From positions 1 to 25,266 of the IMG/VR virus record IMGVR_UViG_3300037171_000099: DNA of 25,266 nt; one strand, 5' to 3'. Origin of the DNA: a virus. Numbering within the stretch: position 1 is the stretch's first letter; each line of letters starts with the position of its first letter. Position numbers and translations under genes: made by a program. This document shows positions 1 to 24,797 of the stretch, piece after piece. The notes under the pieces are model-generated. The model was not told where the DNA came from and searched no databases. It saw nothing but the letters and a program-made list of their open reading frames with translations.

Positions 1-726
1 ATGGTTCGAGTACTCCGTGGTGTCGGTGCACAGGCCGGTGCCCGCTTGGTAGCACTCGAATTTGAAGTTCGGATGTCGCCAGGCCTGCGCGGTCTGCAAC
101 AGCCGCAGCGGATAAACGATGTACGCAAGTCCCCGGAACGCCGGCGTCATGCCGACGCCCTCGATCGCCTCGATGGTGGGGTCCGGCATTTGATCTTCGC
201 TGCCGAGATACAGCACGAACGTCTCGGCGTAGACCGCGGAGGCCGCGAGCCGATCCGCATATTGATCGTCCGTTTCGGCGAGCGTGCCGAGCTCGGTGCT
301 CGCCGGCTGCTGCGGCCGGATGTCGTACACCAGTGTGCCGTTCTCCCAGATGCGCGACACGCCGCCGATCGCCGTGTCGCCGTCCTTGATCGCCTCGCAG
401 AAGCCGATCGCGATCGACTGCTGGTAGCTGTACTGCTCCTGCTGCGGGCCGCCCTTGCCGCCGACGTTATTCTCGCTCTGGATATACGGCGCGAGCCAGA
501 TGACCGTGCCCGAGACGCACGCGGTGCCGGCCAAGATCGGCACGGGTTCGCCGATGGTCGATGTCGTGGTGCGGTTGTCGGTGAGTTGCGGGCCGGCCGG
601 CAGCTGCGTCGGGAACAGCACGGAGCCCGCCAAGCTCCCAAGCGCGAAACCCAATTCGGGATTACCAAAATACGCACCGACGACCGTGCCGACGACGATT
701 AAGGCTGCTTGCCCTAAATTTGAGAT
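1..726 (-). CDS. J-like / GTA-like tail tip protein, N-terminal part (runs off left edge)
   Basis: An open frame of about 242 codons runs off the left end of the window, so only the N-terminus is present. It opens with a hydrophobic, glycine-rich stretch (NLGQAALIVVGTVVGAYFG, then NPELGFALGSLAG), followed by a beta-rich region containing LTDNRTTTSTIGEPVPILAG and a VIWLAPYI stretch. This order is typical of the N-termini of phage tail tip/host-specificity proteins (J-like, GTA TIM-barrel-protein-like) that follow NlpC/P60 in tail operons. The protein would sit at the tail tip and contact the host. No ATG, GTG or TTG precedes the conserved start. I place the start at ATC (726..724), because a GGGAG ribosome binding site lies 7 bases upstream and an in-frame TGA lies about 65 bases upstream. 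This start overlaps the end of the preceding HNH gene by 13 bases. Family call is fairly sure; start codon is uncertain. Confidence 0.8.
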   Translation of the reverse strand, partial: MSNLGQAALIVVGTVVGAYFGNPELGFALGSLAGSVLFPTQLPAGPQLTDNRTTTSTIGEPVPILAGTACVSGTVIWLAPYIQSENNVGGKGGPQQEQYSYQQSIAIGFCEAIKDGDTAIGGVSRIWENGTLVYDIRPQQPASTELGTLAETDDQYADRLAASAVYAETFVLYLGSEDQMPDPTIEAIEGVGMTPAFRGLAYIVYPLRLLQTAQAWRHPNFKFECYQAGTGLCTDTTEYSNH

Positions 727-1208
727 GGCTGGTCTCCCAAAAACGATTCCTTGGCGAACCGGTACGCCTCGGAAGCGACGGATTTCTCAGCGTAGTTTCC
801 CAAGCACAAGAGCCGGCCATTGAGGCGGATCATCGCTCGCCATTTGCCATGGTTCTCGTATACGCCGCGAACGCCAGAGTTTTTGTTGTTGGCGTTCGGT
901 TTTGCCACAAAAAGTCGGTTTGTCTGATCGGTCGCGGGTCTCAAATTATCCCATCGATTGTCGTCTTTCACCTCATTGCGGTGATCCACCTGCCGCCTCG
1001 GCATCGCCCCCGTCATCATCAGCCACGCCAGCCGATTTGCCATGTAGGCGCGGCCGTCGAGTTTGATCTGCCGGTAGCCCTTGGTGGAGATGTACCCGGC
1101 GCGCTTTCCGATCATGCCGCGATTGTTCGGACATTTGAGCCAATAGAAATACCCGGTCTGCGGCTCGTAACGCAGACACTCGCGGCAGCGGTCGAGAAGC
1201 TTACTCAT
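714..1208 (-). CDS. HNH endonuclease with AP2-like DNA-binding domain (free-standing homing-type)
   Basis: The 164-residue protein has an HNH_3-type nuclease core: ANRLAWLMMTGAMP at residues 57-70, then VDH (74-76), and DN..WDNLR ending near residue 90. An AP2-like domain follows, SGVRGVYENHGKWRA at 111-125, with LCLGNYAEKSVASEAY after it. Proteins of this build are common in phages as mobile, self-spreading endonucleases or nicking enzymes. The ATG lies inside the stop region of the NlpC/P60 gene (ATGAGTAA), and the 3' end overlaps the start of the J-like gene. It therefore sits exactly between two tail tip genes that are normally adjacent, which fits a mobile insertion. The frame is intact. 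It is probably not a structural gene. Confidence 0.85.
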   Translation of the reverse strand: MSKLLDRCRECLRYEPQTGYFYWLKCPNNRGMIGKRAGYISTKGYRQIKLDGRAYMANRLAWLMMTGAMPRRQVDHRNEVKDDNRWDNLRPATDQTNRLFVAKPNANNKNSGVRGVYENHGKWRAMIRLNGRLLCLGNYAEKSVASEAYRFAKESFLGDQPSQI

Positions 1209-3318: not shown

Positions 3319-5903
3319 TGATTGTTCCGCCTATTGGCCTGGGCGAGCGAGCGCGCGGCCGCCGCCGCGGTCTGCATCTGCGACGCCCGCGAGATCGTGC
3401 CGCCCGGCGCTTGGATCGTGAAATGGTTGGTGACGTTCTGCGTCTTGCCCGACGCGGCCGGGATCACGTTCATGTTGTGCGCGCCGGAATAGACGAGCTC
3501 CTTGCCCTTCTCGCCGACGATGCCCCAGCGATTCGCGCCGAGCGTGCCGCCCTCCGCGAACCCGGGCAGCGCGACGGAGATCGAGTTCGCGATCGAGTCC
3601 TGACTCACGCCCGCCGCCGCCGCGCCGGTCGAGGCGACGCCCGCGCCGCCGCCGCCGAACAAACCCATGATGCCGTTCATGCCGCCCGCCCCGCCGCCGC
3701 CGAGGCCGCCGCCAAAAATACCGGCGAGCGCGCCCGCAACGCCGCCGCCGGCGCCGCCCGTGCCGAAGACGCTCTGCGAGAAGTCCTTCGCGACCAGCTG
3801 GTCGAGTTGCTTCTCGATGTCGGTAAAAAACGAGCGCAGCGCCTTGCGAAACGACTCTGCGCCGCTGATGAGCTTCGAGAAGTTATCGGCGAAGGCCGAC
3901 TCGAGTCCGGAGCGCACCGAATTCTCCAGCTGCGTCGTGGTCGCCTGCAGCGCGACCAGGCTCGATTGAAATTTCTGCACCCCGGCGACGAGCTGGACGT
4001 TGCTCGCGCCGGCGTCGTTGGCGATGGTCTGCTCCTGGGCGCCGATCGCCTGCAGCTGGCCGAGCGCGAGCAAGCGCGCCGCGGCGATCGCCTGCTGGCC
4101 CTCGAGTTCGGTTTTCTGCCCGGTGGTGACCTCGGCATCCAACGCGGCCGTGGTGATCTCGAGCTGCTGCTTGATCGCATCGGCCCGCAGGTTCAGATCG
4201 TTGATGAGCCCCTGCAGGTCGACCTGATGCTGCTGCCGGTCGAGATCGTCGAGGCCCGTTTGATTGCCGGTCGCGGTGTAGTCCGCGCGCTGTTGGCGCG
4301 TCTGCAGCTCGAGCGACGACATGGCGGCCTCATGCAAATGCCCGGCGAGTTTCAGGGCTTCGTTGTCGAGCTGTGTGATGCCGGCGGCATCCTCCTGCCG
4401 GATCTGCGCGGCTTTGAGCGACAGAATATTCTTCTGGGCGTCCCTGCCGGCCGTGCCCATCCGGTCGAAGGCTTTGCCGAGCTCGCCGGTGGTGATCGCG
4501 TACTGCTCGGCCGCGAGCCGGCCGAGGCCGAACGCTTGGACCTGATTTTCGAGCGCGACCCGGGTCGCGTCGGTTTTTTTGGTATCGACCTCGAGCTGCA
4601 GCTTGTTGGCCCAGGACTGCGCTTCTTTCGCGATCTTCTGCCCTTCGGCGCCGGCGGCTTTGATCGCGTCGGCGAGCGGCCCGAACTTCAACTTGTACGC
4701 GGTCAAGGCGGCGCCGCCCAGGTCGAACGCGGAGGCCTGATCTTTCAGGCCGTCGCGATACTTTTCGAGCTCCTTGGCGCCGGCGGCTCCCGCTTCGGCC
4801 GCCTCGAGATTCGGTCCTGACCCTTTGCCCTTGTTCAGCGCCTCTTTGGCGTCGAAGGCCTCTTTCGCGGCCGCGATCTCGGTCGCGGTCTGTTGGTGCC
4901 AGAGACCGGCGAGCGCATCGGTTGCGGCTTTTTCGGTGGCGACGTTGTCGGCCGCGCCCTGCTTCCAAATCTCGGCGGCCTCGGTGAAGTTGCCCTGCGC
5001 GGCCTGGACCGCGGCGGCCGCCGTCGCACCGATCGCCGTCCCCCACTTCTGGAACTGCGCGACCGCTTCGATGACGACGCTCGCGACCAGCTGCACGGCG
5101 GTGGTGATTTCCTCGGCGATGACGCGGAACTTCTCGCCGCCCGTGCCGTTCGCCTCGAAGCTCGAGACCAACGAATTGAGAACCGGCAGCAACTGCGCGG
5201 AGATCGCGATCCCCAGGCCGTCGACGGCGGTCGCTTTGGCGATGGAGAGTTTCTGCGAGAACTCCTCGGCGGCAGCCGCCAGCTGCCCCGACATGACGAT
5301 ACCGGCCGCCTCGGCTTGCGCCTTGAAAGCGGCGAGGCCTGCGGCGCCCTGGTCGAGCACCGGGATGAGCGCCTGGCCCTGACGGCCGAGCAGCTGCACG
5401 GCGAAGGCGGTCTTGTTGGGCCCGTCGGCCATCTGCGCGAACTTGTTCGCGATCTCGGGCAGGATCTGGCCGGCGTCCTTGATCGAGCCGTCGGCGTTTT
5501 TCACGTCGATGCCGAGTGCGCGGAACGCGACGCCGGCTTTGCTGCTGGCGCTGCCGGCCGCTTCGGCGATATTGACGTTCAGCTTTTTGAGCGACTGGCC
5601 GAGCTCGTCCTGCGAGAGTCCGGAGGCGGCCGCCGCGAGGGTCATCGCGGAGAGACCTTCGACCGACACGCCGGCGGATTGCGACAGCCGCTCGAGCGAG
5701 GCCGCGCTCTCGATGCTCGAGGCGGCGAACTCCGCGATCTTGCCGACGGCGAAGGCGCTGCCGATTTTATCGGCAAGCCCTGCGAGCGCTTCGTTCGAAT
5801 CTTTCGAGAAGGACTGGAGCTTGCTGGTGGCCTGGTCGAGCGCCTTGATGTACTGGCTGTTGTCAGCCTGCATCCGAACGACGAGTGCGGCGAGATCGGT
5901 CAT
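3315..5903 (-). CDS. Tail tape measure protein, lambda family
   Basis: The 862-residue protein is by far the longest here and sits where a tape measure belongs, straight after the tail chaperones. The N-terminus (DLAALVVRMQADNSQYIKALDQ) is the usual tape measure start. Long alanine/glutamine-rich helical stretches fill the middle. Near residues 690-725 the segment FADNFSKLISGAESFRKA and FFTDIEKQLDQLVA matches the C-terminal domain of the lambda tape measure family, followed by a glycine-rich run (GGGLGGGGAGGMNG) and then FAEGGTLGANRWGIVGEKG. It sets tail length and is released with DNA. Assuming about 1.5 angstrom per residue, it would give a tail on the order of 130 nm. The start overlaps the chaperone stop by ATGA. 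Confidence 0.95.
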   Translation of the reverse strand: MTDLAALVVRMQADNSQYIKALDQATSKLQSFSKDSNEALAGLADKIGSAFAVGKIAEFAASSIESAASLERLSQSAGVSVEGLSAMTLAAAASGLSQDELGQSLKKLNVNIAEAAGSASSKAGVAFRALGIDVKNADGSIKDAGQILPEIANKFAQMADGPNKTAFAVQLLGRQGQALIPVLDQGAAGLAAFKAQAEAAGIVMSGQLAAAAEEFSQKLSIAKATAVDGLGIAISAQLLPVLNSLVSSFEANGTGGEKFRVIAEEITTAVQLVASVVIEAVAQFQKWGTAIGATAAAAVQAAQGNFTEAAEIWKQGAADNVATEKAATDALAGLWHQQTATEIAAAKEAFDAKEALNKGKGSGPNLEAAEAGAAGAKELEKYRDGLKDQASAFDLGGAALTAYKLKFGPLADAIKAAGAEGQKIAKEAQSWANKLQLEVDTKKTDATRVALENQVQAFGLGRLAAEQYAITTGELGKAFDRMGTAGRDAQKNILSLKAAQIRQEDAAGITQLDNEALKLAGHLHEAAMSSLELQTRQQRADYTATGNQTGLDDLDRQQHQVDLQGLINDLNLRADAIKQQLEITTAALDAEVTTGQKTELEGQQAIAAARLLALGQLQAIGAQEQTIANDAGASNVQLVAGVQKFQSSLVALQATTTQLENSVRSGLESAFADNFSKLISGAESFRKALRSFFTDIEKQLDQLVAKDFSQSVFGTGGAGGGVAGALAGIFGGGLGGGGAGGMNGIMGLFGGGGAGVASTGAAAAGVSQDSIANSISVALPGFAEGGTLGANRWGIVGEKGKELVYSGAHNMNVIPAASGKTQNVTNHFTIQAPGGTISRASQMQTAAAAARSLAQANRRNNQ

Positions 5904-6268
5904 CGGCGTTTCCCTTTTGCGGCCTGGGTGACCTGGCGCGCGGCGCGGCGCGCGGCGCGGCGTTCCTGGTAGGCGGCGTAGTCGAGCTTCTGGACGAGGA
6001 TGCTCGCGGCCTCGGCGTCGCGATCCTCGGGGAGCTTCAACAGGTAATCGTCGATGGAAATTTTCGCGCCCTCCTTGAGATGAGGCTTTAGCAGTTCCGT
6101 GACGATCATCGCGGCGTGCGTGTTATCGCGCATCGGTCCCCACGGTTCCTCGCGCCAGTACAATTTCCAGCGTTCGGTCTCGCGATGCGTCAGCCGCCCG
6201 ATCTCAACGATCGAGCGCCCCAACAAGGCCGCGAGCCGATGCTCGAAGAGCTCCTGGGGCGTTAAGCG
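5900..6268 (-). CDS. Tail assembly chaperone, frameshift-extended part (lambda T-like domain of G-T)
   Basis: This frame is read after a -1 shift at the slippery site 6268..6274 and continues from codon CGC (6268) for 122 residues, beginning KRLTPQELFEHRLAALLG after the shift. It contains LGRSIVEIGRLTHRETERW and ends in an arginine/alanine-rich helix (YAAYQERRAARRAARQ). The fusion product would be about 217 residues (95 from the upstream frame plus 122). As in lambda gpGT, the minor fusion form is expected to bridge tape measure and tail tube subunits during assembly and to be absent from the virion. No start with a ribosome binding site is needed; a TTG at 6226 exists but lies inside the conserved-looking part. 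Confidence 0.85.
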   Translation of the reverse strand, partial: RLTPQELFEHRLAALLGRSIVEIGRLTHRETERWKLYWREEPWGPMRDNTHAAMIVTELLKPHLKEGAKISIDDYLLKLPEDRDAEAASILVQKLDYAAYQERRAARRAARQVTQAAKGKRR

Positions 6269-6552
6269 TTTTTTGCCGGCTCGCCCTCCTTGGGATCATC
6301 GAGCTTGGTCAAGCGAAACGCTTCGGCGCTCACCTTGTCGACCACGATCTGCGGCAGCGCCATCGCGGCTGCCTCGCTCGCGACAGGCGGCTCGAGAGTG
6401 CATTTCCACGCGACGTACGGCTCCGAGCGGTGCTGCTCGCCGTGGTTGATGAGCCGGCGCACTTCGGCCATCTCGGCGCCCGATAATTCCCGCACGCGAT
6501 AGGTGCGCCCGCGAATCGAGATCTCGTTCGCTTTGAAATCGAGCTCACTCAT
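6262..6552 (-). CDS. Tail assembly chaperone, short form (lambda G-like)
   Basis: The 96-residue protein lies between the tail tube and tape measure genes, the position of the G/GT pair. It contains YRVRELSGAEMAEVRRLINH, a helix typical of these chaperones. The last codons read GCA AAA AAC GCT TAA, so the heptamer A AAA AAC lies just two codons before the stop. Most ribosomes end here and make the short form. The start overlaps the tail tube stop by ATGA. The family call rests on position, size and the slippery site together. Confidence 0.88.
   Translation of the reverse strand: MSELDFKANEISIRGRTYRVRELSGAEMAEVRRLINHGEQHRSEPYVAWKCTLEPPVASEAAAMALPQIVVDKVSAEAFRLTKLDDPKEGEPAKNA
6268..6274 (-). 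promoter_or_regulatory. -1 programmed ribosomal frameshift site A AAA AAC
   Basis: On the minus strand the heptamer AAAAAAC is in the correct register (GC A AAA AAC GC T TAA) for tandem -1 slippage. The -1 frame downstream is open for 122 codons to the tape measure start, and its protein looks chaperone-like. The gene order (tail tube, this pair, tape measure) is the conserved place for such a site in long-tailed phages. Confidence 0.9.
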
Positions 6553-8449: not shown

Positions 8450-8550
8450 TTGCTGTAGTCCGTGAAGAACACGGCGATGATCAAGAGGATGATCCCAATG
8501 ACGACAAGCGCCCCTACCCCGTAGCCGAAAATTTCAAGCGCGAGTTTCAT
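8446..8550 (-). CDS. 34-residue single-span membrane protein
   Basis: The frame encodes MKLALEIFGYGVGALVV, then IGIILLIIAVFF and the short tail TDYSK. Nearly the whole protein is one hydrophobic helix. It starts in an ATGA overlap with the connector stop and ends in an ATGA overlap with the next gene, so both ends are fixed by coupling. It resembles the 37-residue membrane protein at 2564-2677 in size and position logic, not in sequence. Function unknown. Confidence 0.65.
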   Translation of the reverse strand: MKLALEIFGYGVGALVVIGIILLIIAVFFTDYSK

Positions 8551-9056
8551 ACGCCCATCCCGACGCGGTACGGGAACAGCATCGACTCGCAGCGCGTCTC
8601 GATCAGTTCGAAGTTGTCGGTGTTGCGATCGAACAGCGACTCCATGTACAGCAGGATCGCGGCTTTGACGTCGCGGCGCAGCGGCTGCGATTGATCTTTG
8701 AGCATCGGGTTATTCGCCCAATACGCGAGCCAGGTTTCCTGCGTCCAGCCTTCCCAGCCGTACCAGGCCTGCACGCCCGGGCCGTTGACGATGTTGGTGA
8801 CATCGAGCGCGGCGGGATACGGATCGATCCAGCTGGGCGAGTCCTTGGGGTCCGGGGCGGGCTGCGGATTCGAATCGCTCGGGGAGTTGAGCTCCACGAG
8901 CTCGGCGAGCGAGCGCTGCGTGAAGTTCTCGGCCCAATCGATCGCGGCGCCGATCAGGTCTTCGATGCGCGAATCCCAATAGGTGTTGCCCAGGTCGATC
9001 GACAGCTGGAACTTGGCGTCATCGAGCGAGATGTACTGGCCGCGCGGTGAGTTCAT
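8547..9056 (-). CDS. Head-tail connector (HK97 gp6-like)
   Basis: The 169-residue protein begins MNSPRGQYISLDDAKFQLSI and continues DLGNTYWDSRIEDLIGAAID with WAENFTQRSLAEL, the classic N-terminus of the phage gp6-like connector family (helices for the portal-adaptor ring). The middle is an unusually long insert rich in Pro, Ser and Trp (SPSDSNPQPAPDPKDSPSWI and WYGWEGWTQETWLAYW). The family C-terminus returns with RRDVKAAILLYMESLFD. The ATG overlaps the stop of the GT8-like gene (ATGA), so the start of the connector block is coupled to the sugar-transfer island. Confidence 0.87.
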   Translation of the reverse strand: MNSPRGQYISLDDAKFQLSIDLGNTYWDSRIEDLIGAAIDWAENFTQRSLAELVELNSPSDSNPQPAPDPKDSPSWIDPYPAALDVTNIVNGPGVQAWYGWEGWTQETWLAYWANNPMLKDQSQPLRRDVKAAILLYMESLFDRNTDNFELIETRCESMLFPYRVGMGV

Positions 9057-9769
9057 CGGTAGTGCTCCATGATCCAGCTGTGCTTGCGTCGCATGTGCGG
9101 CTCCCAGGGATCGACGTGGCCGTGCATGATGACCATTCGAGCGTTGGTCGGCAGATGTCCACCATGCCGCGGCGCGATCTGGTTGCGGTAGGAATATACG
9201 CCGTCGCGCTCCGTGAATTTCGGCTCGTTGGGTCCCAGGCACACCCCGATCCACGCCTGGTCGCTGCCAATGTAGTGCGCCTTGAGCCCCAGGAGCGGCG
9301 AAGTCAGCGGGTCGAATTGTTCCCAGAGTTGGGGCCGGGTTCCGGCTTTGTGCTGGATCAGTGAGCCGTTATAGGGGGTGCCGCGCGCGGTGTCGCCGTA
9401 GATTTTGAAATCGAGATCTTCAGCAAATAGCCCGGTGATGTCGCGGACGATAACGACATCGAGATCGAGCGAAACGAACCGGGGACCGAGGAAGCCAGCT
9501 GCCTCACGAGAGAACATTCGAAGGCGTCGATAGCAGCTTGGATTTCCGCGTCCGTGAGGGCTGGGGACATTCGCGTAGTCGCTCCACAGTTTGATGATCC
9601 GCACATCCGGCGAGATCCCGACCGCATCGTCGGTGATGCACACCAGTTCGAACGGCGCATGGTAATGGCGCGTGAGCATGCTGTGCAGCACGTTGACCGT
9701 GGCCGGGCCGAACTTCGATCGATAGCCGCGCGCCGGCGTCCACTTCCAGCAGACAAAGGTTGTCAGCAC
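9053..9769 (-). CDS. GT8-like glycosyltransferase (DxD), sugar-transfer island
   Basis: The 238-residue protein has a GT-A-type layout: FVCWKWTPARGYRSKFGPAT at the N-terminus, FELVCITDDAVGIS at 40-53, and SLDLDVVIVRDI at 100-111, where D102-x-D104 is a metal/nucleotide-sugar binding DxD motif. Further down, DFKIYGDTARGTPYNGSLI and HYIGSDQAWIG follow the pattern of GT8-related transferases that keep a 'D..W' acceptor-side motif. It likely moves a sugar from a nucleotide-sugar donor in the cytoplasm. The acceptor is unknown. The start overlaps the GT2 stop by 7 bases, the end overlaps the connector start. Confidence 0.78.
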   Translation of the reverse strand: MLTTFVCWKWTPARGYRSKFGPATVNVLHSMLTRHYHAPFELVCITDDAVGISPDVRIIKLWSDYANVPSPHGRGNPSCYRRLRMFSREAAGFLGPRFVSLDLDVVIVRDITGLFAEDLDFKIYGDTARGTPYNGSLIQHKAGTRPQLWEQFDPLTSPLLGLKAHYIGSDQAWIGVCLGPNEPKFTERDGVYSYRNQIAPRHGGHLPTNARMVIMHGHVDPWEPHMRRKHSWIMEHYR

Positions 9770-10482
9770 GGCGACTCGAAAAGTTTCCTATAGGGGAACG
9801 TGAGCCGGCGCGGCGTCCAGGCGCCTTCGAGGGCGCGGGCCGCGGTGACGCGCGGCATGCCGAAGGCATCCATCGGCTCTTTGCGCCCGTAGGTGGTGGT
9901 CGAGGCGTCGGGCACGACGGTACGGGGAACCCTGATCAGCCACTGCGGCAGCATCACGATTTTGGCGTGCTGGTTCACCCGATCGCGAAATTCCGCATCG
10001 GTCCCGTAGAAGCCCGCATAGCGTTCGTCGTAGCCGCCGATCTTCTCGAAGAGGGCGCGCGTCATCAGCCAGCTGTTCGGGTGCGGTTTGTACCTCGACA
10101 GGTCGCCGTCGCGCTCGAGCGTGCGCCGCTCGAAGCGGTAGACGTGCTTGGCCGGCCGTTCGGTGCCAAGGATGGCCGCCATCGTTGCGTGTGGAACGAT
10201 GTGATCGATATCGGTCAGGAGCAGCCACGGCGTGGTCGCGTGGTGCGCTGCGATGTTGCGCGCCGCGTCCTGGTTCCAGCGCACGTCGACCCCGATCTTG
10301 AAGATGGTCAGCGGGCAGCCTATCGGCTCGCCCTGTGCGTCGCCGTCCGGCGATCCGTCGTCGACCACGATCACCGCCAGCTGCTCGAGCACATCGGCGC
10401 CGTACGCCCGTATCCGCTCGAACTGGAGCCGCAGCATTCCCGCGTTGCAATAATAGGGGAAACACAGCGTGAGTTTTCTCAC
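9763..10482 (-). CDS. GT2-type glycosyltransferase
   Basis: The 239-residue protein has the family 2 GT-A signature: LTLCFPYYCNAGMLRLQFER at the N-terminus, VIVVDDGSPDG at 37-47, the WNQDAARNIAA segment at 69-79, and LLLTDIDHIVP at 87-97 with a D91-x-D93 motif. A second half with IGGYDERYAGFYGTDAEFRDR carries the usual 'GYDE...G.D.E...R' acceptor region. It is soluble, with no membrane span. The start overlaps the HNH-type gene stop by ATGA. The acceptor cannot be read from sequence. Confidence 0.88.
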   Translation of the reverse strand: MRKLTLCFPYYCNAGMLRLQFERIRAYGADVLEQLAVIVVDDGSPDGDAQGEPIGCPLTIFKIGVDVRWNQDAARNIAAHHATTPWLLLTDIDHIVPHATMAAILGTERPAKHVYRFERRTLERDGDLSRYKPHPNSWLMTRALFEKIGGYDERYAGFYGTDAEFRDRVNQHAKIVMLPQWLIRVPRTVVPDASTTTYGRKEPMDAFGMPRVTAARALEGAWTPRRLTFPYRKLFESPC

Positions 10483-10877
10483 GCGGCTCGATTCCGAAGG
10501 TTATCCTCCATGGTGACCCATCGACAATTGGACGGCTCGTAATCGAGATTCGAACGTTTGCGGTCAATCGTGAGGTGGTCTGCATAGCCGTGCGAGAGAG
10601 CCCACGCCGCAAATGTTTCGAAGCTGTCCCACTCCGCGCAAATCTTTATCCCGCGATCCACGTAGTATTTTTTCGCCGACGGGTTGCAGCACGCCGTCAC
10701 GCCACAGCGGCTGCGCATCCACTCCCACTCTTTGTGAAGGCGCGTCCTGCTCATCCCATGCTTCGTGTGGGCGCAGCTGACGCAAAGCCTCGCGGCTCGC
10801 CGAGCCAGCGACATGCGCGTCCAGTTCTTCGGCATTGGCCGGTCTTCATTGCATTTTGGGCACCTCACGAGGCGCAT
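10479..10877 (-). CDS. HNH-like phage nuclease/DNA-binding protein with zinc ribbon
   Basis: The 132-residue protein starts MRLVRCPKCNEDRPMPKNWT with a CPKC pair, and a second pair (CVSC) at 32-35 completes a probable zinc ribbon. The C-terminal part (HKEWEWMRSRC, then YVDRGIKICAEWDSFETF, then HLTIDRKRSN and YEPSNCRWVTMEDNLRNR) matches a widespread phage protein type with the pattern 'Y..RGI..C..W..F..F..........IDR...N..YEP.NCRW', often annotated as HNH endonuclease or intron-type DNA-binding protein. It splits two island genes but is coupled to both. I chose ATG at 10877, which overlaps the end of the preceding gene by 13 bases. Confidence 0.75.
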   Translation of the reverse strand: MRLVRCPKCNEDRPMPKNWTRMSLARRAARLCVSCAHTKHGMSRTRLHKEWEWMRSRCGVTACCNPSAKKYYVDRGIKICAEWDSFETFAAWALSHGYADHLTIDRKRSNLDYEPSNCRWVTMEDNLRNRAA

Positions 10878-11494
10878 TGCGCGGTCGCCTCGAGATCGGC
10901 GCGACTGATGCGGCCGAACGCATGCACGGCGGAGCTCGAGCCGCAGAGCCACGTCGAGATCCCCACGGCGCGCAGCTGCTGGGCGGCGGTGTCGAACTGC
11001 GCGCCCCACTCGGCCAGGCGCTTATCCCCGGTGGCGTGGCCTTCCACCCAGGGATATTGCGGGAACCAGTGCGCCTCGTTTTTCGGTCCGCGCTTCATGT
11101 CGAAGCCGACCAGGTAGAGCTCGGCCGGGCGCATCTGATAGGCGAGATTGAGCGCACAGAACCCCGAGTGCGTGCCGTTGAGGCAGCCGGGTTCGTCGGT
11201 GAGTGTGGTCGACGTGTGGTCGCAGTCGAACAGGTGGACGTGCTCGAGGCCGTCGGCCTTGACGTTCTTCATGGTCGAGCGACGCAGCCAAACGGGTTTG
11301 CCAAACCGCGATATCGAGCCGAATCGCCGCTCGGTCCAGATCCGATCCATCGACACGACCGCGTCGACGCGCGGCGCATAGATGGCCGCATCGTTCACGG
11401 CGATCACGAAGCCGGGCAGCTTGCGCAAATCGAGTTGGCTCGCGGACCAGCCGCCGCCGAGCACGGTCACGCGTTTTACGTCTTGCGCAGCCAT
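10865..11494 (-). CDS. MptE/DUF115-like Rossmann-type protein (second copy in the island)
   Basis: The 209-residue protein begins with DVKRVTVLGGGWSASQLDLR, a glycine-rich nucleotide-binding-type loop, then PGFVIAVNDAAIYAPRVDAV and VVSMDRIWTERRF. The second half has LNGTHSGFCALNLAYQ and PAELYLVGFDM. The order 'G.G.S...D', 'VIAVND.....P..DA', 'H SG..A...A', 'LYLVGFD' is that of the MptE-like/DUF115 group, which in phages and flagellar islands goes together with sugar transfer. It shares the 'NSG..A.........LLGFD' block with the gene at 12830-13420, so the two are probably paralogs. Reaction not known. The start overlaps the GT-D/methyltransferase stop by 19 bases. Confidence 0.7.
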   Translation of the reverse strand: MAAQDVKRVTVLGGGWSASQLDLRKLPGFVIAVNDAAIYAPRVDAVVSMDRIWTERRFGSISRFGKPVWLRRSTMKNVKADGLEHVHLFDCDHTSTTLTDEPGCLNGTHSGFCALNLAYQMRPAELYLVGFDMKRGPKNEAHWFPQYPWVEGHATGDKRLAEWGAQFDTAAQQLRAVGISTWLCGSSSAVHAFGRISRADLEATAQCAS

Positions 11495-12657
11495 ACGCGA
11501 AGCTCCTTGCCTGTGGCCTGCGCACCCTCGACCGACCAGCCGATGCGCCGCAGTTCGGTGAGCCACCAGTCGGCCGGCTCGACGATCAGGTGGGCGTTGC
11601 GGCCGTCGGGCAAGACTGCGTTCGCTGGCTTGGTCGAGATCACGAAGTAGGCGGCGCGCGCGGCGAGGCGCCACAAATGATCGAGCACCGCGGTGAGCTT
11701 GGTGGGTTCGACGTGCTCGAGCACGTCCGTGCACACGACCAGGTCGGCGGGCTTGGGCATTTTCGCGTGCGCCATGACGCCGGGATCGTAGTTCTGCCAC
11801 CGGAACGCCGGCAGCGCGGCCGCGAGCTTCGCCTCGCCGCAGCCGTAATCGAGCAACGTCTCGGCCTCGAGACCGGTCGCGAAGGCCTCGACCGCCTCGG
11901 CATGTTTCGCGCCGTCGGCGCCCCAGCTGCGTTTGCGATGCAGCTGCGCCAGCTGCTGCCGGTACGGCGCGCTGGTCAGATCGTTGACCTGGTAGAGGTA
12001 CGCGCCGGCGTGCCGCATGAACATCCCGATGTGACCGAGATCGAGCGCGTGAATCCCCTTCCACGAGAGCCGATAGGCCAGCGCGGTCGCCGTCGCGCCC
12101 AGGCACAGCAGCACGATGCGATCGTGGAGGCCCGAGGCCAGGACCTCGACCTCGCGCTCGAGCAGATCGATTTCCGCATACGCATGCTGGCGCGACCCGG
12201 AGACCGTGGTGACGCTGTGCGCCTCGCCCTCGAGCATTTCGACGGTGATCGATTTTTTATCGCCGACGACGAGGATCACGTCCTTGCCGCGCCACAGGTC
12301 GCGGACCTGGTCCCAATATTTCGGCGTGTCGATCCACGGCGCGTTATCGGGCCGCGTGATGAAGGCGCTGCCATAGACGGCCGCGCCGCAGTACTTGACG
12401 TAGCGTTCCTCCGCGTACCGCAGCCACTGCTCCTTGCGCGGGCAGCCGTTGAAGATGTTCGGCAGGCACACGATGCAATCCCCGGGGTGCAGCGCGATCA
12501 TTTGGAGCTCGCGCGCGAGATTGGCATCGAAGCGCTGCGACGTGCAGCCGTTCTCGACCGCGCAGCGCCACTCGCCGTCGCCGAAGCGCGCGATCGAGCG
12601 CGTGGCCGCGAGCTCGAGGGTTTGGTCTTCGGAAAGTATTTGCGGATACTTTTTCAA
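11476..12657 (-). CDS. Bifunctional GT-D fold glycosyltransferase + SAM methyltransferase
   Basis: The 393-residue protein has two domains. Residues 15-235 carry the GT-D (DUF1792-type) signature SIARFGDGEWRC at 21-32 and VCLPNIFNG at 63-71, with DVILVVGDKK at 126-135 and LLCLGATATALAY at 183-195. Residues 245-393 are a class I methyltransferase: LLDYGCGEAKLA at 268-279 (motif I), YDPGV at 290-294, and VVCTDVLEHVEP at 307-318. The start is TTG at 12657, since it forms a TTGA overlap with the preceding small gene; a GTG at 12696 would lengthen it by 13 residues of shadow-like sequence. The fusion would let one protein add a sugar and methylate the sugar or the acceptor. Substrates are not visible. 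Confidence 0.82.
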   Translation of the reverse strand: MKKYPQILSEDQTLELAATRSIARFGDGEWRCAVENGCTSQRFDANLARELQMIALHPGDCIVCLPNIFNGCPRKEQWLRYAEERYVKYCGAAVYGSAFITRPDNAPWIDTPKYWDQVRDLWRGKDVILVVGDKKSITVEMLEGEAHSVTTVSGSRQHAYAEIDLLEREVEVLASGLHDRIVLLCLGATATALAYRLSWKGIHALDLGHIGMFMRHAGAYLYQVNDLTSAPYRQQLAQLHRKRSWGADGAKHAEAVEAFATGLEAETLLDYGCGEAKLAAALPAFRWQNYDPGVMAHAKMPKPADLVVCTDVLEHVEPTKLTAVLDHLWRLAARAAYFVISTKPANAVLPDGRNAHLIVEPADWWLTELRRIGWSVEGAQATGKELRVWLRKT

Positions 12658-12833
12658 GACTCGTCCAGCACTTCGACGCGGCCGCCGATCACCCACATGC
12701 CGAAGCGCACCAGGCGCACGCCGAGCCAGATCCGAAACACAAACACGCGCGAGAGGCGGATCCGCACCACGAGTTCCTGTGCCAGGACCTCATCGAGCTC
12801 GCGGTGTCCGACGCTGGTGTTCAGCAATTTCAT
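12654..12833 (-). CDS. 59-residue basic, hydrophobic protein in the island
   Basis: The protein reads MKLLNTSVGHRELDEVLAQE, then LVVRIRLSRVFVFRIWLG and VRLVRFGMWVIGG, ending VEVLDES. The middle is an amphipathic, Arg-spaced hydrophobic stretch that could bind the membrane surface or form a helix. It starts in an ATGA overlap with the MptE/DUF115-like gene and ends in a TTGA overlap with the GT-D gene, so it lies tightly coupled in the island. I do not know the family. Confidence 0.7.
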   Translation of the reverse strand: MKLLNTSVGHRELDEVLAQELVVRIRLSRVFVFRIWLGVRLVRFGMWVIGGRVEVLDES

Positions 12834-13420
12834 ACGCAGTCTCCGATCGGTTGGCGCGCGAAACACTGTAGCGCGGTCTTGGGCGAGCAGTTGATGACGG
12901 TGACGCCGGCGGCCTCGAGATCGACGCTGAGCTTGTTCATGGCCGCGACCCAGGTCGGGTACATGCCGCCGTTCCCCAGGCCGCGCGGATGGTCGCCGTG
13001 CCAGTGCGTCTTGCCGCCGCTGCGTTGGAAATCGAACCCGAGCAGCAGGATGCGCGTGCAACCGAACAGCGCGGCCAGGCCGATCGCCTGGTAACCGGAA
13101 TTTTTGCCGGTGTGGATCATCGTCGGGTTCGTCGACAGGCCCGGCTTGTCCATGCCATAGATCCAGTGCAAATCGAATTGATCGCGGGCGCGCGCCGACA
13201 CGGTCCACTTCTCGCCATGGAACACGGTCGCGATCTCGGGGAAATAGTGGATCCACCATTGATCGTCGCAAGCATAGAGCGCGTCCGCCCATGGCGCGGC
13301 GCGAAAGCTCGTGTTGACGACTATGGTGCGCTGGCACGCTCGTGACGTGAGGACGTCTTGCGGCGTGAGGCTGGGGCCCGACGCGATGATGCAGACGGTC
13401 TCGCCTTGCCATCGTCCTTG
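12830..13420 (-). CDS. MptE/DUF115-like Rossmann-type protein (first copy), start codon missing or frameshifted
   Basis: The conserved domain begins WQGETVCIIASGPSLTPQDV, the typical N-terminal 'ASGPSLT' loop of this phage family, followed by IVVNTSFRAAPWADALYACD, then DQWWIHYF, then HTGKNSGYQAIGLAALFG and RILLLGFDFQ. About 196 residues are shown. No ATG, GTG or TTG occurs in this frame upstream of the conserved loop; the first (GTG at 13225) would remove the loop and the first strand. The frame is joined to the preceding gene by a -1 shift at G GGC CCC (13426..13420), which would give a fusion of about 277 residues. Other explanations are an unusual start codon or a sequence error. The domain call is solid, the start is not. 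The stop overlaps the next gene by ATGA. Confidence 0.7.
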   Translation of the reverse strand, partial: QGRWQGETVCIIASGPSLTPQDVLTSRACQRTIVVNTSFRAAPWADALYACDDQWWIHYFPEIATVFHGEKWTVSARARDQFDLHWIYGMDKPGLSTNPTMIHTGKNSGYQAIGLAALFGCTRILLLGFDFQRSGGKTHWHGDHPRGLGNGGMYPTWVAAMNKLSVDLEAAGVTVINCSPKTALQCFARQPIGDCV

Positions 13421-13662
13421 GGGCCCGCCATGTCTTGGGCTACCGGCGGCGGCGGGCTTGCCGACGGCGCCCCGGCGTGCTGCGTGAGCGGCGCACGCTG
13501 GAAGGCCTGGACGCGCTGCGGTTGCGGATCATCGGGCAGGATCACGATCATGCTTTTCTGCTTGAGCGCGTCCGCGTAGCCCTTCTCCGCCGAAAAGATC
13601 TGGCCGCTCCGGAGCAGCCCGTAACGACCCTTGAATGTTTTCAGCGCTCGACACTGCGGCAT
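13321..13662 (-). CDS. Small head-region protein after capsid, possible frameshift donor
   Basis: The 113-residue protein starts MPQCRALKTFKGRYGLLRSG, then QIFSAEKGYADALKQK, resembling small phage proteins with the pattern 'ALK.F.GRYG..R.G......YA..L' that often follow the major capsid gene. The second half is low complexity: Pro-rich (SASPPPPVAQ) and then Arg/Ser-rich. From about residue 82 on, it overlaps the MptE/DUF115-like frame. If the -1 shift at 13420-13426 is used, the first 81 residues become the N-terminus of that protein. The ATG has GGAG about 7 bases upstream. Function unknown. Confidence 0.65.
   Translation of the reverse strand: MPQCRALKTFKGRYGLLRSGQIFSAEKGYADALKQKSMIVILPDDPQPQRVQAFQRAPLTQHAGAPSASPPPPVAQDMAGPKDDGKARPSASSRRAPASRRKTSSRHERASAP
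13420..13426 (-). promoter_or_regulatory. Candidate -1 slippery heptamer G GGC CCC
   Basis: In the frame of the 113-residue gene the codons are GCG GGC CCC AAG, so the heptamer GGGCCCC has the X XXY YYZ form and the right register. A -1 slip leads directly into the MptE/DUF115-like frame that lacks its own start. GC-only heptamers are usually weak slip sites, so this is a hypothesis, not an established site. Confidence 0.35.
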
Positions 13663-13768: not shown

Positions 13769-15118
13769 TTACGTGTTGCTGGTGCCCGCCGGGAACGATC
13801 CATAGACGAACGCCGCCGGCCGCGTGACCGCGAGCCCCAAGCGTTCTTCGCACAGAATCGTGACCATGTTGCGAATGAAATTGTCCTGGTTCTCCGTCGA
13901 TACCAGGATCTGCGCTTCTTCGCGATCGAACAGCGTGGCGGCCAACTTGAACGCGCCGACCAAAAAGTCGCCCGGCTCGAACGAATAGCTCTGCACCACC
14001 GGCACACCCCACAGCATCGCCGGCGTGGCCATGCCAGGGCTCGCGTAGATGTAGCGATGCAGCGTGTCTTTCGTCAGTTCGAGCGAGTGCCAGTCGGTCG
14101 GGCTCATGACAATGCCCGTGGTCGGATAGAAGGCCAATTGCACTTGCAGCATCGCGTGGCGAATCACGTCGATGCGGGTGTCGTACTCGGCCGCGTGCGC
14201 GCCGCTATAGTCCGTTGCCTGCGGGACGATCCCCTGCAGGTTGCCCGCGACACCGTCGCCCATGAGGATCTGCTGTTCCTCGGCGAGCTTGAGGCCGAAG
14301 GTCATGCGGCCGTTGATCAGCGTCGCCAGCTGCTTGAAGTCCGCGAGGACCTGCTTCGATGCGTTGATCCAGTGCCCGATCGTCTCGACCGGCACATTCA
14401 ACCGCTCATAGGTCAGGTTCGACTCGGGCTTGAGGGCGCCTTCGGAAATGACCCCCGCCGCGTTGGTGAACACCAATTCCCGCACCCACTCGATGAGATT
14501 CGACTCGGTAGTGCCGACGTCCAGCAGATCCCGCACGGTCAAGGGCATGAAGTTCGGCACAACGACGCCCGGCAAGTACTCGGGAATGATGCCGCCGCCG
14601 CCCGATAACGGGATGCTCGTGATCGTCTTCAACTTGAACGGCGCGCTCGTGGCCTTGGCGCTGCGGCCCTTCGGCGCGAACTCCTTGAGCTCGGTCGACT
14701 CGATGAATAGTTCGCCGGCGTTCTTGCCTCTGCTTCCGCCGCCGCCCGGGCCGCGCGCCAGCAGCTTCTGCTCGAGATCGAGAATGCGCCGGTCGAGCGC
14801 CTGCTTTTCCTCAACTGCCTTCGCGTGGTCGGCCACGATTTTCGCGCCGTCGGCGTTGAGCTTAGCGATCGCGTCTTTCGTACCGTCCTGCACGCTGCCG
14901 AATTTTTTGAAATCGTCGTCGTACTTGGCGAGCACGGCTTTGATCTCTGCGCCGTGTGCGGTCAGCGCCTCTCGGATCGCGGCGCGCAGCGCCTCGCCCG
15001 AGGGGGCGTCGCACAGCGCGAGCTTGCCGCGATACCAGTAGAAATCTTGTTCGAGGACGTTGCCGTCCCAATCGAGCACGCCGCGCGTGATAATTTTTCG
15101 AGCCTGGGGAATGAACAT
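13769..15118 (-). CDS. Major capsid protein, HK97 fold, with N-terminal delta domain
   Basis: The 449-residue protein has an N-terminal part of about 170 residues with heptad-like coiled coil (IREALTAHGAEIKAVL near 48, AKAVEEKQALDRRILDLEQK near 98) and a glycine-rich hinge near 126-130; this acts as scaffold and is normally cut off by the protease. The capsid part begins near LKTITSIPLSGGGGIIPEYL and includes VRDLLDVGTTESNLIEWVRE (P-domain and E-loop region), GHWINASKQVLADF, EEQQILMGDG and the C-terminal DFLVGAFKLAATLFDREEAQ with RNMVTILCEERLGLAVTRP. This matches HK97 gp5-like capsid proteins. An AAGGAAA ribosome binding site precedes the ATG. Confidence 0.96.
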   Translation of the reverse strand: MFIPQARKIITRGVLDWDGNVLEQDFYWYRGKLALCDAPSGEALRAAIREALTAHGAEIKAVLAKYDDDFKKFGSVQDGTKDAIAKLNADGAKIVADHAKAVEEKQALDRRILDLEQKLLARGPGGGGSRGKNAGELFIESTELKEFAPKGRSAKATSAPFKLKTITSIPLSGGGGIIPEYLPGVVVPNFMPLTVRDLLDVGTTESNLIEWVRELVFTNAAGVISEGALKPESNLTYERLNVPVETIGHWINASKQVLADFKQLATLINGRMTFGLKLAEEQQILMGDGVAGNLQGIVPQATDYSGAHAAEYDTRIDVIRHAMLQVQLAFYPTTGIVMSPTDWHSLELTKDTLHRYIYASPGMATPAMLWGVPVVQSYSFEPGDFLVGAFKLAATLFDREEAQILVSTENQDNFIRNMVTILCEERLGLAVTRPAAFVYGSFPAGTSNT

Positions 15119-19335: not shown

Positions 19336-19369
19336 GACCCCGCCCCGTCAATTTGATCGACCCCCCCCC
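19336..19369 (-). other. G-rich gap between HNH and terS, possible cos region
   Basis: On the minus strand this gap begins with a run of nine G, then TCGATCAAATTGAC and GGGGCGGGG before the terS GTG. The first base of the run is the last base of the HNH stop. In HK97-type phages the cos site lies close to terS and the neighbouring HNH gene, so a packaging signal here is plausible, but no known cos sequence is recognised. Confidence 0.3.
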
Positions 19370-19818
19370 TATCCAATTTCGCGACGCCAAAAATTTGCCA
19401 CAGGACGCGCTTCCACAAGGATCGCTTTTCTAGTTCTAACCCCCCCAGGGCCGCCACCGTGGATGCGCCCCAGCGCCGCGAGCTCGTCGAGCCGACGTTG
19501 CGCGAGTTCGATGCGCCGCTTGGTGCTGTTGTGGCAGTAGGTGCACAGCGACTGCCAGTTGTCTTCGTCCCAGAACAGTTGGCTGTCGCCGCGGTGCGGG
19601 ATGATGTGATCGACCACGCTGGCGATGACGTATAGACCGCGACGTTCATCGAAGACGCAGAGCGGATGCTCGTTGAGCCAGCGCGCGCGCGCGCGGAGCC
19701 AGCGGTTGTCGTAGCCTTGGGCGGTGCGCGTGCCGCGTCGTTGTCGATCGAACAGCGCACGCAGCGTTGGTGTGATGACCGAACCTGGTGGTCGATGAGT
19801 CTTCGGCATCGTCGGCAT
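19369..19818 (-). CDS. HNH endonuclease, packaging-associated (HK97 gp74-like)
   Basis: The 149-residue protein has RGTRTAQGYDNRWLRARARW, typical for packaging-linked HNH proteins, and the nuclease core VVDHIIPHRGDSQLFWDEDN at 68-87 with LCTYCHNSTK at 91-100. His71, Asn87 and His96 form the H-N-H triad, and Cys54, Cys92, Cys95 could bind zinc. In HK97-like phages such proteins assist terminase in cutting at cos. The last 25 residues after RIHGGGPGG do not resemble the family end, and the gene contains a run of seven G (19440-19446), so a slip in this run may have changed the tail. ATG at 19818 is used; TTG at 19833 is an alternative. No strong ribosome binding site is visible. Confidence 0.87.
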   Translation of the reverse strand: MPTMPKTHRPPGSVITPTLRALFDRQRRGTRTAQGYDNRWLRARARWLNEHPLCVFDERRGLYVIASVVDHIIPHRGDSQLFWDEDNWQSLCTYCHNSTKRRIELAQRRLDELAALGRIHGGGPGGVRTRKAILVEARPVANFWRREIG

Positions 19819-19843
19819 AGATTGAACAGTCAATGAGTTGCGG

Positions 19844-22572: not shown

Positions 22573-23400
22573 ATGCCCGTTAAAACTGCGATCGAATGGA
22601 CGGAATTTTCTTGGAATCCTTTTGTCGGCTGCACGATCCACACGGCCGGATGCACGAACTGCTACGCGATGCGCGTGGCGCGGCGGCTGCAGGAGTTCGG
22701 CCAGCCGAGCTACCAGGGCGTGGTCAAGGTGGTGAACAAGTCGCCGGTCTGGACCGGTCGCGTCAATCGCGCCAGCGAGGCGCAGTTCCGCAAACCGTTC
22801 AAGATCAAAAAGCCGTCGCTGATCTTCGTCAATTCGATGTCGGACTTTTTCCATCCGGAGGCGCTCGATGAGTGGCGACTCGACGCGCTCGGGGTCATGC
22901 GATCCACGCGGCACCAATATCAGGTGCTGACCAAACGACCGGAAAATATCGCGCCGTGGCTCGCGCGCAGCGGCTTGCCAATTCCCTCGAATATGTGGAT
23001 AGGCGCCACGGTCGAGCGCGCTGACTGCGTGCACCGCATTGTTACGCTGCGAGACGTGCCGGCGAAGATCCGCTTTCTGTCGATCGAGCCTTTGATCGGC
23101 CCGGTCGGACCGATGGATTTGACCGGGATTTCGTGGGTCATTCTCGGCGGTGAATCCGGGCCAGGCGCGCGCAACATGCGGCCGCTCTGGGCGCGCGAAG
23201 TCCGCGATCAGTGCATCGCGCAGAACGTGCCGCTGTTTTTTAAGCAGTGGGGAATCGCTTACAACAATCCGATTTTTCACGAAGCGCCAGCCGGAACCAC
23301 CGGCACGCAGTGGGTCGCAAAACACGATCCGGTCGGCAAGGGCGGCTCGAAGCTCGACGGCTGCGAGTGGAAAGACTATCCCGCGTTCGGTGCCCCATGA
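22573..23400 (+). CDS. Phage Gp37/Gp68 family protein (DUF5131, putative radical SAM type)
   Basis: The 275-residue protein matches the Gp37/Gp68 family: IEWTEFSWNPFVGCTIHTAG at the N-terminus and CTNCYAMRVARRLQEFG after it, with Cys20, Cys27 and Cys30 that could hold an iron-sulfur cluster. Further motifs are LIFVNSMSDFFHPEAL, YQVLTKRPENI, MWIGATVERAD, RFLSIEPLIGPV, and VILGGESGPGARNMRPLW with VPLFFKQWG. The family is widespread in phages and plasmids. Its reaction is not established; the Cys pattern suggests radical SAM chemistry. It is followed by an ATGA overlap. Confidence 0.9.
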   Translation: MPVKTAIEWTEFSWNPFVGCTIHTAGCTNCYAMRVARRLQEFGQPSYQGVVKVVNKSPVWTGRVNRASEAQFRKPFKIKKPSLIFVNSMSDFFHPEALDEWRLDALGVMRSTRHQYQVLTKRPENIAPWLARSGLPIPSNMWIGATVERADCVHRIVTLRDVPAKIRFLSIEPLIGPVGPMDLTGISWVILGGESGPGARNMRPLWAREVRDQCIAQNVPLFFKQWGIAYNNPIFHEAPAGTTGTQWVAKHDPVGKGGSKLDGCEWKDYPAFGAP

Positions 23401-24222: not shown

Positions 24223-24645
24223 TCAGTGCTCGCGCTTAGCTCGCGCGGCCGCCATTTCATCGACGAACAGCGACCGCGTCTCGGGTGGCGCCGGCAGCGT
24301 CGAGGGCTTCGGGTGGTCGATTTTCTGCTCGGCCCAGGCGTTGATCACCAGGTAGCGCGAGCGCCGGATGTCGTACCGGCCAATCAGGCCTTCGCGCTCG
24401 ATCTCCCGCAAACAGGCTTCGATCCTCAAGCCGAACGCGCTCTCGCCTGGGAACAGTTCGAACGCAAAAAGGCCGGGGTCCTCGCGCATCCGGCCTTGAT
24501 CGTCGGCGATCGTGTGCAGCAGCATCCGGCCTTGATCGTCGGCGATCGTGTGCAGCAGCAGATACAGCAACCGCGAGTCGTGCGACAAGTTTCGGAAGGA
24601 CTGCCATCGGCAGATATCGGGCGGCAGCTGGCGCTTTCGGCTCAT
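24223..24645 (-). CDS. Winged-helix/replication-type phage protein with internal duplication
   Basis: The 140-residue protein starts MSRKRQLPPDICRWQSFRNL, then SHDSRLLYLLLHTIADDQGR. The pattern 'L...SRLLY..L...ADD.GR...DP..F....FP' is that of phage replication or helix-turn-helix proteins whose N-terminus resembles replisome organizers. The middle has LRIEACLREIEREGLIGRYD and RYLVINAWAEQKIDHPKPS. A 36-base perfect tandem duplication doubles LLHTIADDQGRM inside the DNA-binding helix region. I chose ATG at 24645 because AAGGA lies 5 bases upstream; the frame is open to 24765 but that part is not protein-like. Confidence 0.72.
   Translation of the reverse strand: MSRKRQLPPDICRWQSFRNLSHDSRLLYLLLHTIADDQGRMLLHTIADDQGRMREDPGLFAFELFPGESAFGLRIEACLREIEREGLIGRYDIRRSRYLVINAWAEQKIDHPKPSTLPAPPETRSLFVDEMAAARAKREH
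24487..24558. repeat. Perfect tandem repeat, 2 x 36 bp, in frame
   Basis: The units 24487-24522 and 24523-24558 are identical. Each encodes LLHTIADDQGRM on the minus strand. The length is a multiple of three, so the frame is kept and the protein gains 12 residues. Confidence 0.95.
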
Positions 24646-24797
24646 CGCATCCTTGTCCCGGTTTTTGTTGGTAGGGCCGCCGAGCTCGGCCGCAAGCGCA
24701 AATTGCGCGCACGCGCCCACGAAGATTGTAAATCCAAATCTTAGATCCGAATCCGACGCCCGCACGCCCGCGCGCGCCCGTTCTTTAGCTGAAAAAA

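Follow-up and report, generated by a model that had tools for sequence, protein, structure and literature searches.

How is a predicted glycosyltransferase expressed from a gene that has no start codon, and what would it act on? The question is raised by a 25,266-nt stretch of viral DNA (IMG/VR virus record IMGVR_UViG_3300037171_000099, positions 1 to 25,266; "the window" denotes this whole stretch). Its late operon, on the minus strand, carries terminase, portal, protease, capsid, an island of sugar-transfer genes, connector and tail genes. Between the stop codon at 13531-13529 and a motif at 13387, the open frame of the island's first enzyme, MptE-like 1, contains no ATG, GTG or TTG. This frame lies at -1 to that of a small upstream gene, o114, whose own stop codon falls inside MptE-like 1. 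Comparison of related sequences makes it very likely that, in this family, programmed -1 frameshifting yields a fusion of o114 with the glycosyltransferase.

A profile scan of viral contigs for MptE-like 1 matched at least 570 relatives, 80 of which were fetched. Together with the loci collected earlier these formed 70 clusters at 90% identity. No start codon was present within 45 codons upstream in 54 clusters, and 52 of those overlapped the upstream open reading frame (ORF) at -1. A heptamer of the form X_XXY_YYZ, in zero-frame phase and within the stretch where entry is possible, was found in 45 of these 52 clusters, which are mutually related and whose heptamer counts, here and below, are not independent events. 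Codon shuffling gave 16.0 (standard deviation 3.0, maximum 25, 1000 shuffles), and the other two phases gave 11 and 3. A further 32 clusters, all new, came from a second scan that used distant members; the same rule was applied to them, with a search interval that stopped 5 codons before the motif rather than 8. Here 22 clusters qualified and 19 of them had the heptamer, against 4.4 in shuffles (standard deviation 1.9, maximum 12) and 5 and 8 in the other phases. The type of heptamer varied among relatives (GGGAAAA, AAAAAAC, CCCAAAA, CCCTTTG, AAACCCT) but the pattern was constant. Even in L083, L192, L200, L204 and L079, whose -1 frame stays open for just 10-18 codons, a heptamer lay inside that interval.

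A missing start could also be produced by a sequencing or assembly frameshift error, and the records are mostly metagenomic assemblies. Against this, the same -1 relation recurs in dozens of independent contigs and in the sequenced isolates S20, Psp6 and D3, and the other genes on the same contigs are intact. As a control on the same loci, start-less cases were counted in 13 other structural and enzyme gene families; there were none, versus 52 of 68 for MptE-like 1. Start-less profile matches to MptE-like 2, a second such protein of the island, were taken as cross-hits to MptE-like 1 ORFs and excluded from the control count. Sequencing error was rejected for the family on this recurrence and on the intact-gene control, and we give it almost no probability.

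Another explanation is independent initiation of MptE-like 1 at a non-standard start codon within o114, in which case no fusion is made. Real starts at codons -10 to -18 in some relatives, a GTG 20 codons upstream in D3 and PMG1, and the lack of a canonical heptamer in the window clade are all compatible with this. It does not account for so many members lacking ATG, GTG and TTG when each instance of the other tested families has such a codon, for a frame that is always -1, or for right-phase heptamers far above the shuffled counts in both samples. Separate initiation is thus improbable in our estimate, and frameshifting is the preferred explanation.

Several observations weigh against frameshifting. 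A canonical heptamer is missing at the usual place from the window and its two closest relatives, L038 and L039, and also from L029, L051, L060, L071, L080 and L090. A possible start was present in about one quarter of clusters, and the versions in PAJU2, Eowyn, L067-L069 and L117 look stand-alone; fusion to o114 is therefore not universal. Downstream RNA folding was only mildly stronger than in shuffles (mean z -0.82 across 46 loci, with some below -2). As a main signal, downstream RNA structure was weak and was rejected.

For the window's own copy, the pattern of substitutions makes frameshift expression probable, with somewhat less assurance than for the family. Variable sites within the window clade favoured zero-frame third positions from -200 to -80 nt (18 versus 3) and -1-frame third positions from -40 to +60 nt (11 versus 2). 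This switch in the frame under selection supports a frame change between roughly -80 and -40 nt. The window has the heptamer G_GGC_CCC at 13426-13420, of which L038 and L039 retain only C_CCC. Since these nearest relatives read GAC CCC, G_GGC_CCC was rejected as a conserved slip site of the clade, in which the exact site is uncertain. GGGCCC-type heptamers were also found in L172 and L178. The same operon has a textbook A_AAA_AAC site in its tail chaperone pair (5900-6552, minus strand), where gene G ends GCA AAA AAC GCT TAA and the gpT-like frame is -1 with no upstream start.

Known phage frameshifts resemble this arrangement. The tail assembly chaperones G/GT and the coat-protein extensions of T3 and Lactobacillus phage A2 have an X_XXY_YYZ site close to the end of a short zero-frame gene of the structural operon; coat-protein extensions made by -1 frameshifting are reviewed in PMC5009743. 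What the frameshift adds in those known cases is a structural domain or a chaperone extension; in o114 it would be an enzyme. No glycosyltransferase case was found in PMC5009743 or PMC10885494, and a search among open-licence papers for frameshifting together with glycosyltransferase or sialyltransferase retrieved no paper on such expression in phages. If our reading is right, frameshifting in phages supplies an enzyme here, beyond the structural extensions that it makes elsewhere.

The nature of that enzyme was assessed from a structure model of MptE-like 1 (pLDDT 88.9, pTM 0.89). Foldseek alone gave no significant match in the PDB (best E 0.007, to unrelated folds, with Maf and GT42 enzymes not ranked high). 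Sequence searches of the PDB at E up to 10 gave no match for MptE-like 1, and nothing useful was recovered for MptE-like 2. The fold assignment comes from VIA re-alignment of the Foldseek candidates, in which the Maf glycosyltransferase of Magnetospirillum (5mu5) ranked first (Z 14.9, 178 residues, 3.2 Å). The GT42 sialyltransferases CstI and CstII of Campylobacter followed at Z 10-12 (10.4 to 11.6; CstII 11.6), with 12-18% identity, together with the pterin enzyme MptE (8sd5, Z 11.5). Human GT29 sialyltransferases scored Z 8 to 9 and thiamine pyrophosphokinases Z 7-10. Both MptE-like proteins match phrog_4603, which is named alpha-2;3-sialyltransferase, and MptE-like 1 scored 28 bits against PF01973, under the cut-off of 34.6. 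The motifs SGPS, NSG, LLGFD and HWHGDH are kept family-wide.

MptE-like 1 is accordingly a predicted Maf/GT42-fold glycosyltransferase. The MptE-like proteins could instead be relatives of pterin or thiamine pyrophosphokinases with another role, as those enzymes share the fold. We consider this rather unlikely: Maf is clearly the top match, the GT42 enzymes score level with MptE across a longer alignment, the neighbouring genes are glycosyltransferases and HWHGDH is conserved. The sequence-only reading had called these proteins MptE/DUF115-like. The model agrees with a transferase fold, and the pterin enzyme does share it, but the label was too vague for a predicted structure closest to Maf and GT42 sialyltransferases. 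Maf enzymes O-glycosylate Ser and Thr of flagellin with nonulosonic acids (PMC11339370), and so modify a self-assembling structural protein, as is proposed for the phage enzyme. They differ from it in size (632 aa versus about 200 aa); the phage enzyme is encoded in a head operon and is seemingly made as a frameshift fusion.

In the structure model, o114 has a confident small N-terminal domain (residues 1-46) followed by a disordered Pro-rich tail. Its family assignment is phrog_2616 (12 of 20 members). Pfam found nothing meaningful on its relatives, a PDB sequence search returned nothing useful, and its BFVD matches were mostly unnamed phage proteins. The nearest folds were YqbF (the top Foldseek match), ribosomal L9-N, GINS and the C-terminal domain of lambda gpFI. 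As described in work on TP901-1 that cites Popovic 2012, gpFI is a capsid chaperone; the same paper mentions a proposal that the TP901-1 homologue of gpFI enters capsids through a -1 frameshift, and its western blots gave no second capsid band (PMC4493119). The o114 domain superposes on the head-binding domain of gpFI (2lsm) at 0.9 Å over 42 residues. This comparison also counts against our reading, as the Z score is only 5.2 and is tied with the unrelated small folds of L9 and GINS. The resemblance of the model to a gpFI-type domain is attractive, but Z 5.2 does not establish membership.

We suggest the following mechanism. Most ribosomes translating o114 would terminate at its own stop codon, and a fraction would slip one base back near the end of the folded domain and continue in the -1 frame. 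The product would consist of a small head-region domain, a flexible Pro/Ala-rich linker and a Maf/GT42-type glycosyltransferase. The o114 domain may dock on the capsid or procapsid and hold the transferase there, where it would add the first sugar to a virion protein. The GT2, GT-D and GT8-like enzymes and the second Maf-like protein could then extend the glycan, with the methyltransferase or methyltransferases capping it. Taken as a whole, it is reasonably likely that the late operon contains a glycosylation module and that programmed -1 frameshifting expresses its key enzyme.

As to the target, we lean slightly towards virion proteins, given where the island lies and the predicted frameshift fusion of its first enzyme to a capsid-adjacent protein; capsid glycosylation would be the likeliest role. 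The enzymes might alternatively act on the surface of the host, altering its O-antigen or capsule as happens in superinfection exclusion. Surface polysaccharides are common substrates of GT2, GT8-like and GT-D enzymes, and the 59-aa hydrophobic protein of the island could be membrane-associated. This appears unlikely, though less so than the other alternatives considered. The genes occupy a late structural slot from capsid to connector in most relatives, the lead enzyme is predicted to be fused to a capsid-adjacent protein, and the island genes include no flippase or polyprenyl-linked multi-spanning enzyme. Virion glycosylation does have a precedent. In the mycobacteriophages Che8 and Rita, phage-encoded glycosyltransferases are linked to glycans on major capsid proteins, according to PMC11256854, citing Freeman 2023. 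For Maravista, by contrast, that paper places the glycosyltransferase genes close to the 3′ end of the genome, outside the capsid-connector interval, and no frameshift fusion is mentioned.

More tentatively, this may be a widespread strategy, in which a frameshift appends a Maf-type glycosyltransferase to a capsid-docking protein. The efficiency of slippage would set the number of transferases per procapsid, the head would be glycosylated during assembly, and accessory transferases and methyltransferases would be swapped in the same operon slot. If the proposed mechanism is right, PHROG 4603, now labelled sialyltransferase and often annotated with a wrong or truncated start, depends on recoding for its expression in many phages. 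The mechanism would also explain how a sugar transferase can be directed to a virus shell, and virion glycosylation would be testable in cultured phages.

Among cultured phages, the transferase of the Pseudomonas putida phage Psp6 has no start. In D3 and PMG1, orf6.5 and orf7 are in the same -1 relation, with C_CCA_AAG and the possible GTG start mentioned above. S20 (L002, NC_020840.1, 4840-5595) has C_CCT_TTG, and its annotated sialyltransferase start at 5128 truncates the protein. Gene callers thus currently truncate MptE-like 1 proteins, as in S20, D3 and Psp6. The stand-alone versions in PAJU2 (L120 2489-3058) and Eowyn (L124 2486-3058) have their own ATG and are annotated as "structural protein"; if that label is experimental, the transferase stays on virions. 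The record of S20, "Tetraselmis viridis virus S20", lists a green alga as host, and its genes are those of a tailed bacteriophage.

The features of the island and its borders are given in Table 1. From the sequence alone, a multi-enzyme pathway decorating the virion, the host surface or DNA had been proposed within the late structural operon. Every gene named in that proposal was found on the minus strand with agreeing family assignments, and neighbouring island genes overlap by 3 to 19 bases. The enzymes (two Maf/GT42-like proteins, GT-D, GT2, GT8-like and methyltransferases) do occur as a conserved group at this position in many phages, which supports a glycan pathway. The proposal had missed the small upstream gene, the frameshift, the loss of a methyltransferase from the window and the likely insertion of the HNH gene.

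Table 1. Coordinates of the island, its borders and the proposed frameshift region in the window, with examples of a gene found in relatives
Feature	Position	Strand	Evidence or remark
Major capsid protein	13769..15118	-	directly upstream of island; HK97-type neighbourhood portal-protease-capsid
o114, 113-aa protein, zero frame of the proposed frameshift	13321..13662	-	overlaps MptE-like 1
Interval where translation must enter the -1 frame	13387..13528	-	opens after TGA 13531-13529; motif IASGPSL begins 13387
Candidate slip site G_GGC_CCC in o114 phase, tentative	13420..13426	-	nearest two relatives keep C_CCC part only
MptE-like 1, predicted Maf/GT42-fold glycosyltransferase domain, -1 frame	12830..13528	-	phrog_4603 E 6e-47; fold model
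59-aa hydrophobic/amphipathic protein	12654..12833	-	weakly conserved in some relatives (31-42%)
GT-D::SAM methyltransferase fusion, TTG start	11476..12657	-	PF08759 99.4 bits, PF13489 (Methyltransf_23) 33.3 bits
MptE-like 2, own ATG	10865..11494	-	second, divergent phrog_4603 member, E 2e-20
HNH endonuclease gene	10479..10877	-	phrog_3377 E 3e-29
GT2-family glycosyltransferase	9763..10482	-	PF10111 27.8, PF00535 25.9 bits, just above cut-off
GT8-like glycosyltransferase	9053..9769	-	phrog_1962 (glycosyltransferase) E 1.2e-7; invariant DLD motif
Head-tail connector (Ad1), downstream island border	8547..9056	-	phrog_40 E 1.9e-6; PF05135 20.9 bits, just below cut-off
Second methyltransferase, examples in relatives	L006:2660-3325; L007:6797-7510; 16 others		

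Relatives of the island were collected by scans with the GT8-like and GT-D proteins, which gave about 23 further viral contigs in IMG/VR, and by tblastn, which gave S20. In these, all or most of the set lies between the capsid and connector genes. The usual order was capsid, o114, MptE-like 1, (small protein), GT-D::methyltransferase, second methyltransferase, MptE-like 2, GT2, GT8-like and connector. Since the same gene order recurs in these contigs and in S20, the order in the window is not due to chance. In most relatives a capsid homologue with 51-88% identity is found at the corresponding position; in S20 and L027 the identity is about 40%. The GT-D and methyltransferase profiles both scored above cut-off within one protein, which is 54-67% identical across 18 relatives. 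The GT8-like assignment is the weakest of the island, with no Pfam match, the phrog_1962 match at about 1e-7 and, from a profile search of the PDB, a sole marginal match to the galactosyltransferase 6mw5 (E 0.34).

The window differs from its relatives in two respects. Nearly all relatives that have a complete cassette carry a second SAM methyltransferase (Methyltransf_23; 18 members in one cluster) between GT-D::methyltransferase and MptE-like 2. It is absent from the window, where those two genes overlap directly, and by comparison with the relatives it appears to have been lost. The HNH gene between MptE-like 2 and GT2 was found at this place only in the window's own contigs and was absent in all other relatives examined; it is probably an insertion peculiar to this phage. 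Two more HNH genes are present in the window, one among the tail genes (714-1202, minus strand, HNH_3, 44 bits) and one beside the terminase (19369-19833, minus strand, HNH, 28.5 bits).

Close relatives L041, L043, L044, L046 and L051 keep o114 and MptE-like 1, and their other island genes are missing or have been replaced. Most distant relatives have only an o114-like gene and MptE-like 1 in the slot, and the post-capsid position holds in most distant relatives whose contig includes the upstream genes. As the pair persists where the other genes are absent or replaced, o114 and MptE-like 1 form the core of the island and the remainder is accessory. Tandem MptE-like 1 domains follow the capsid gene in L067 (2676-3754) and L084 (4295-5558).

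In a 67-kb contig (L025), a cassette of GT-D::methyltransferase, second methyltransferase, MptE-like 2, GT2 and GT8-like genes lies at 9001-12845. The 19 kb examined contained no o114, MptE-like 1 or any profiled structural gene; here part of the island has moved into another background. Four loci with a GT8 relative were found in bacterial genomes; of these, L117 and L118 at least have phage head or packaging genes as neighbours. A nearly complete cassette is present in Bradyrhizobium sp. JYMT SZCCT0428 (L115, 4308-9702), where none of the phage structural-gene profiles used matched nearby. Elsewhere in the window, the non-structural part encodes a DUF5131 protein (22573-23400, plus strand, 265 bits), and an ORF at 24223-24765 (minus strand) contains a perfect direct duplication, with LLHTIADDQGRM repeated.

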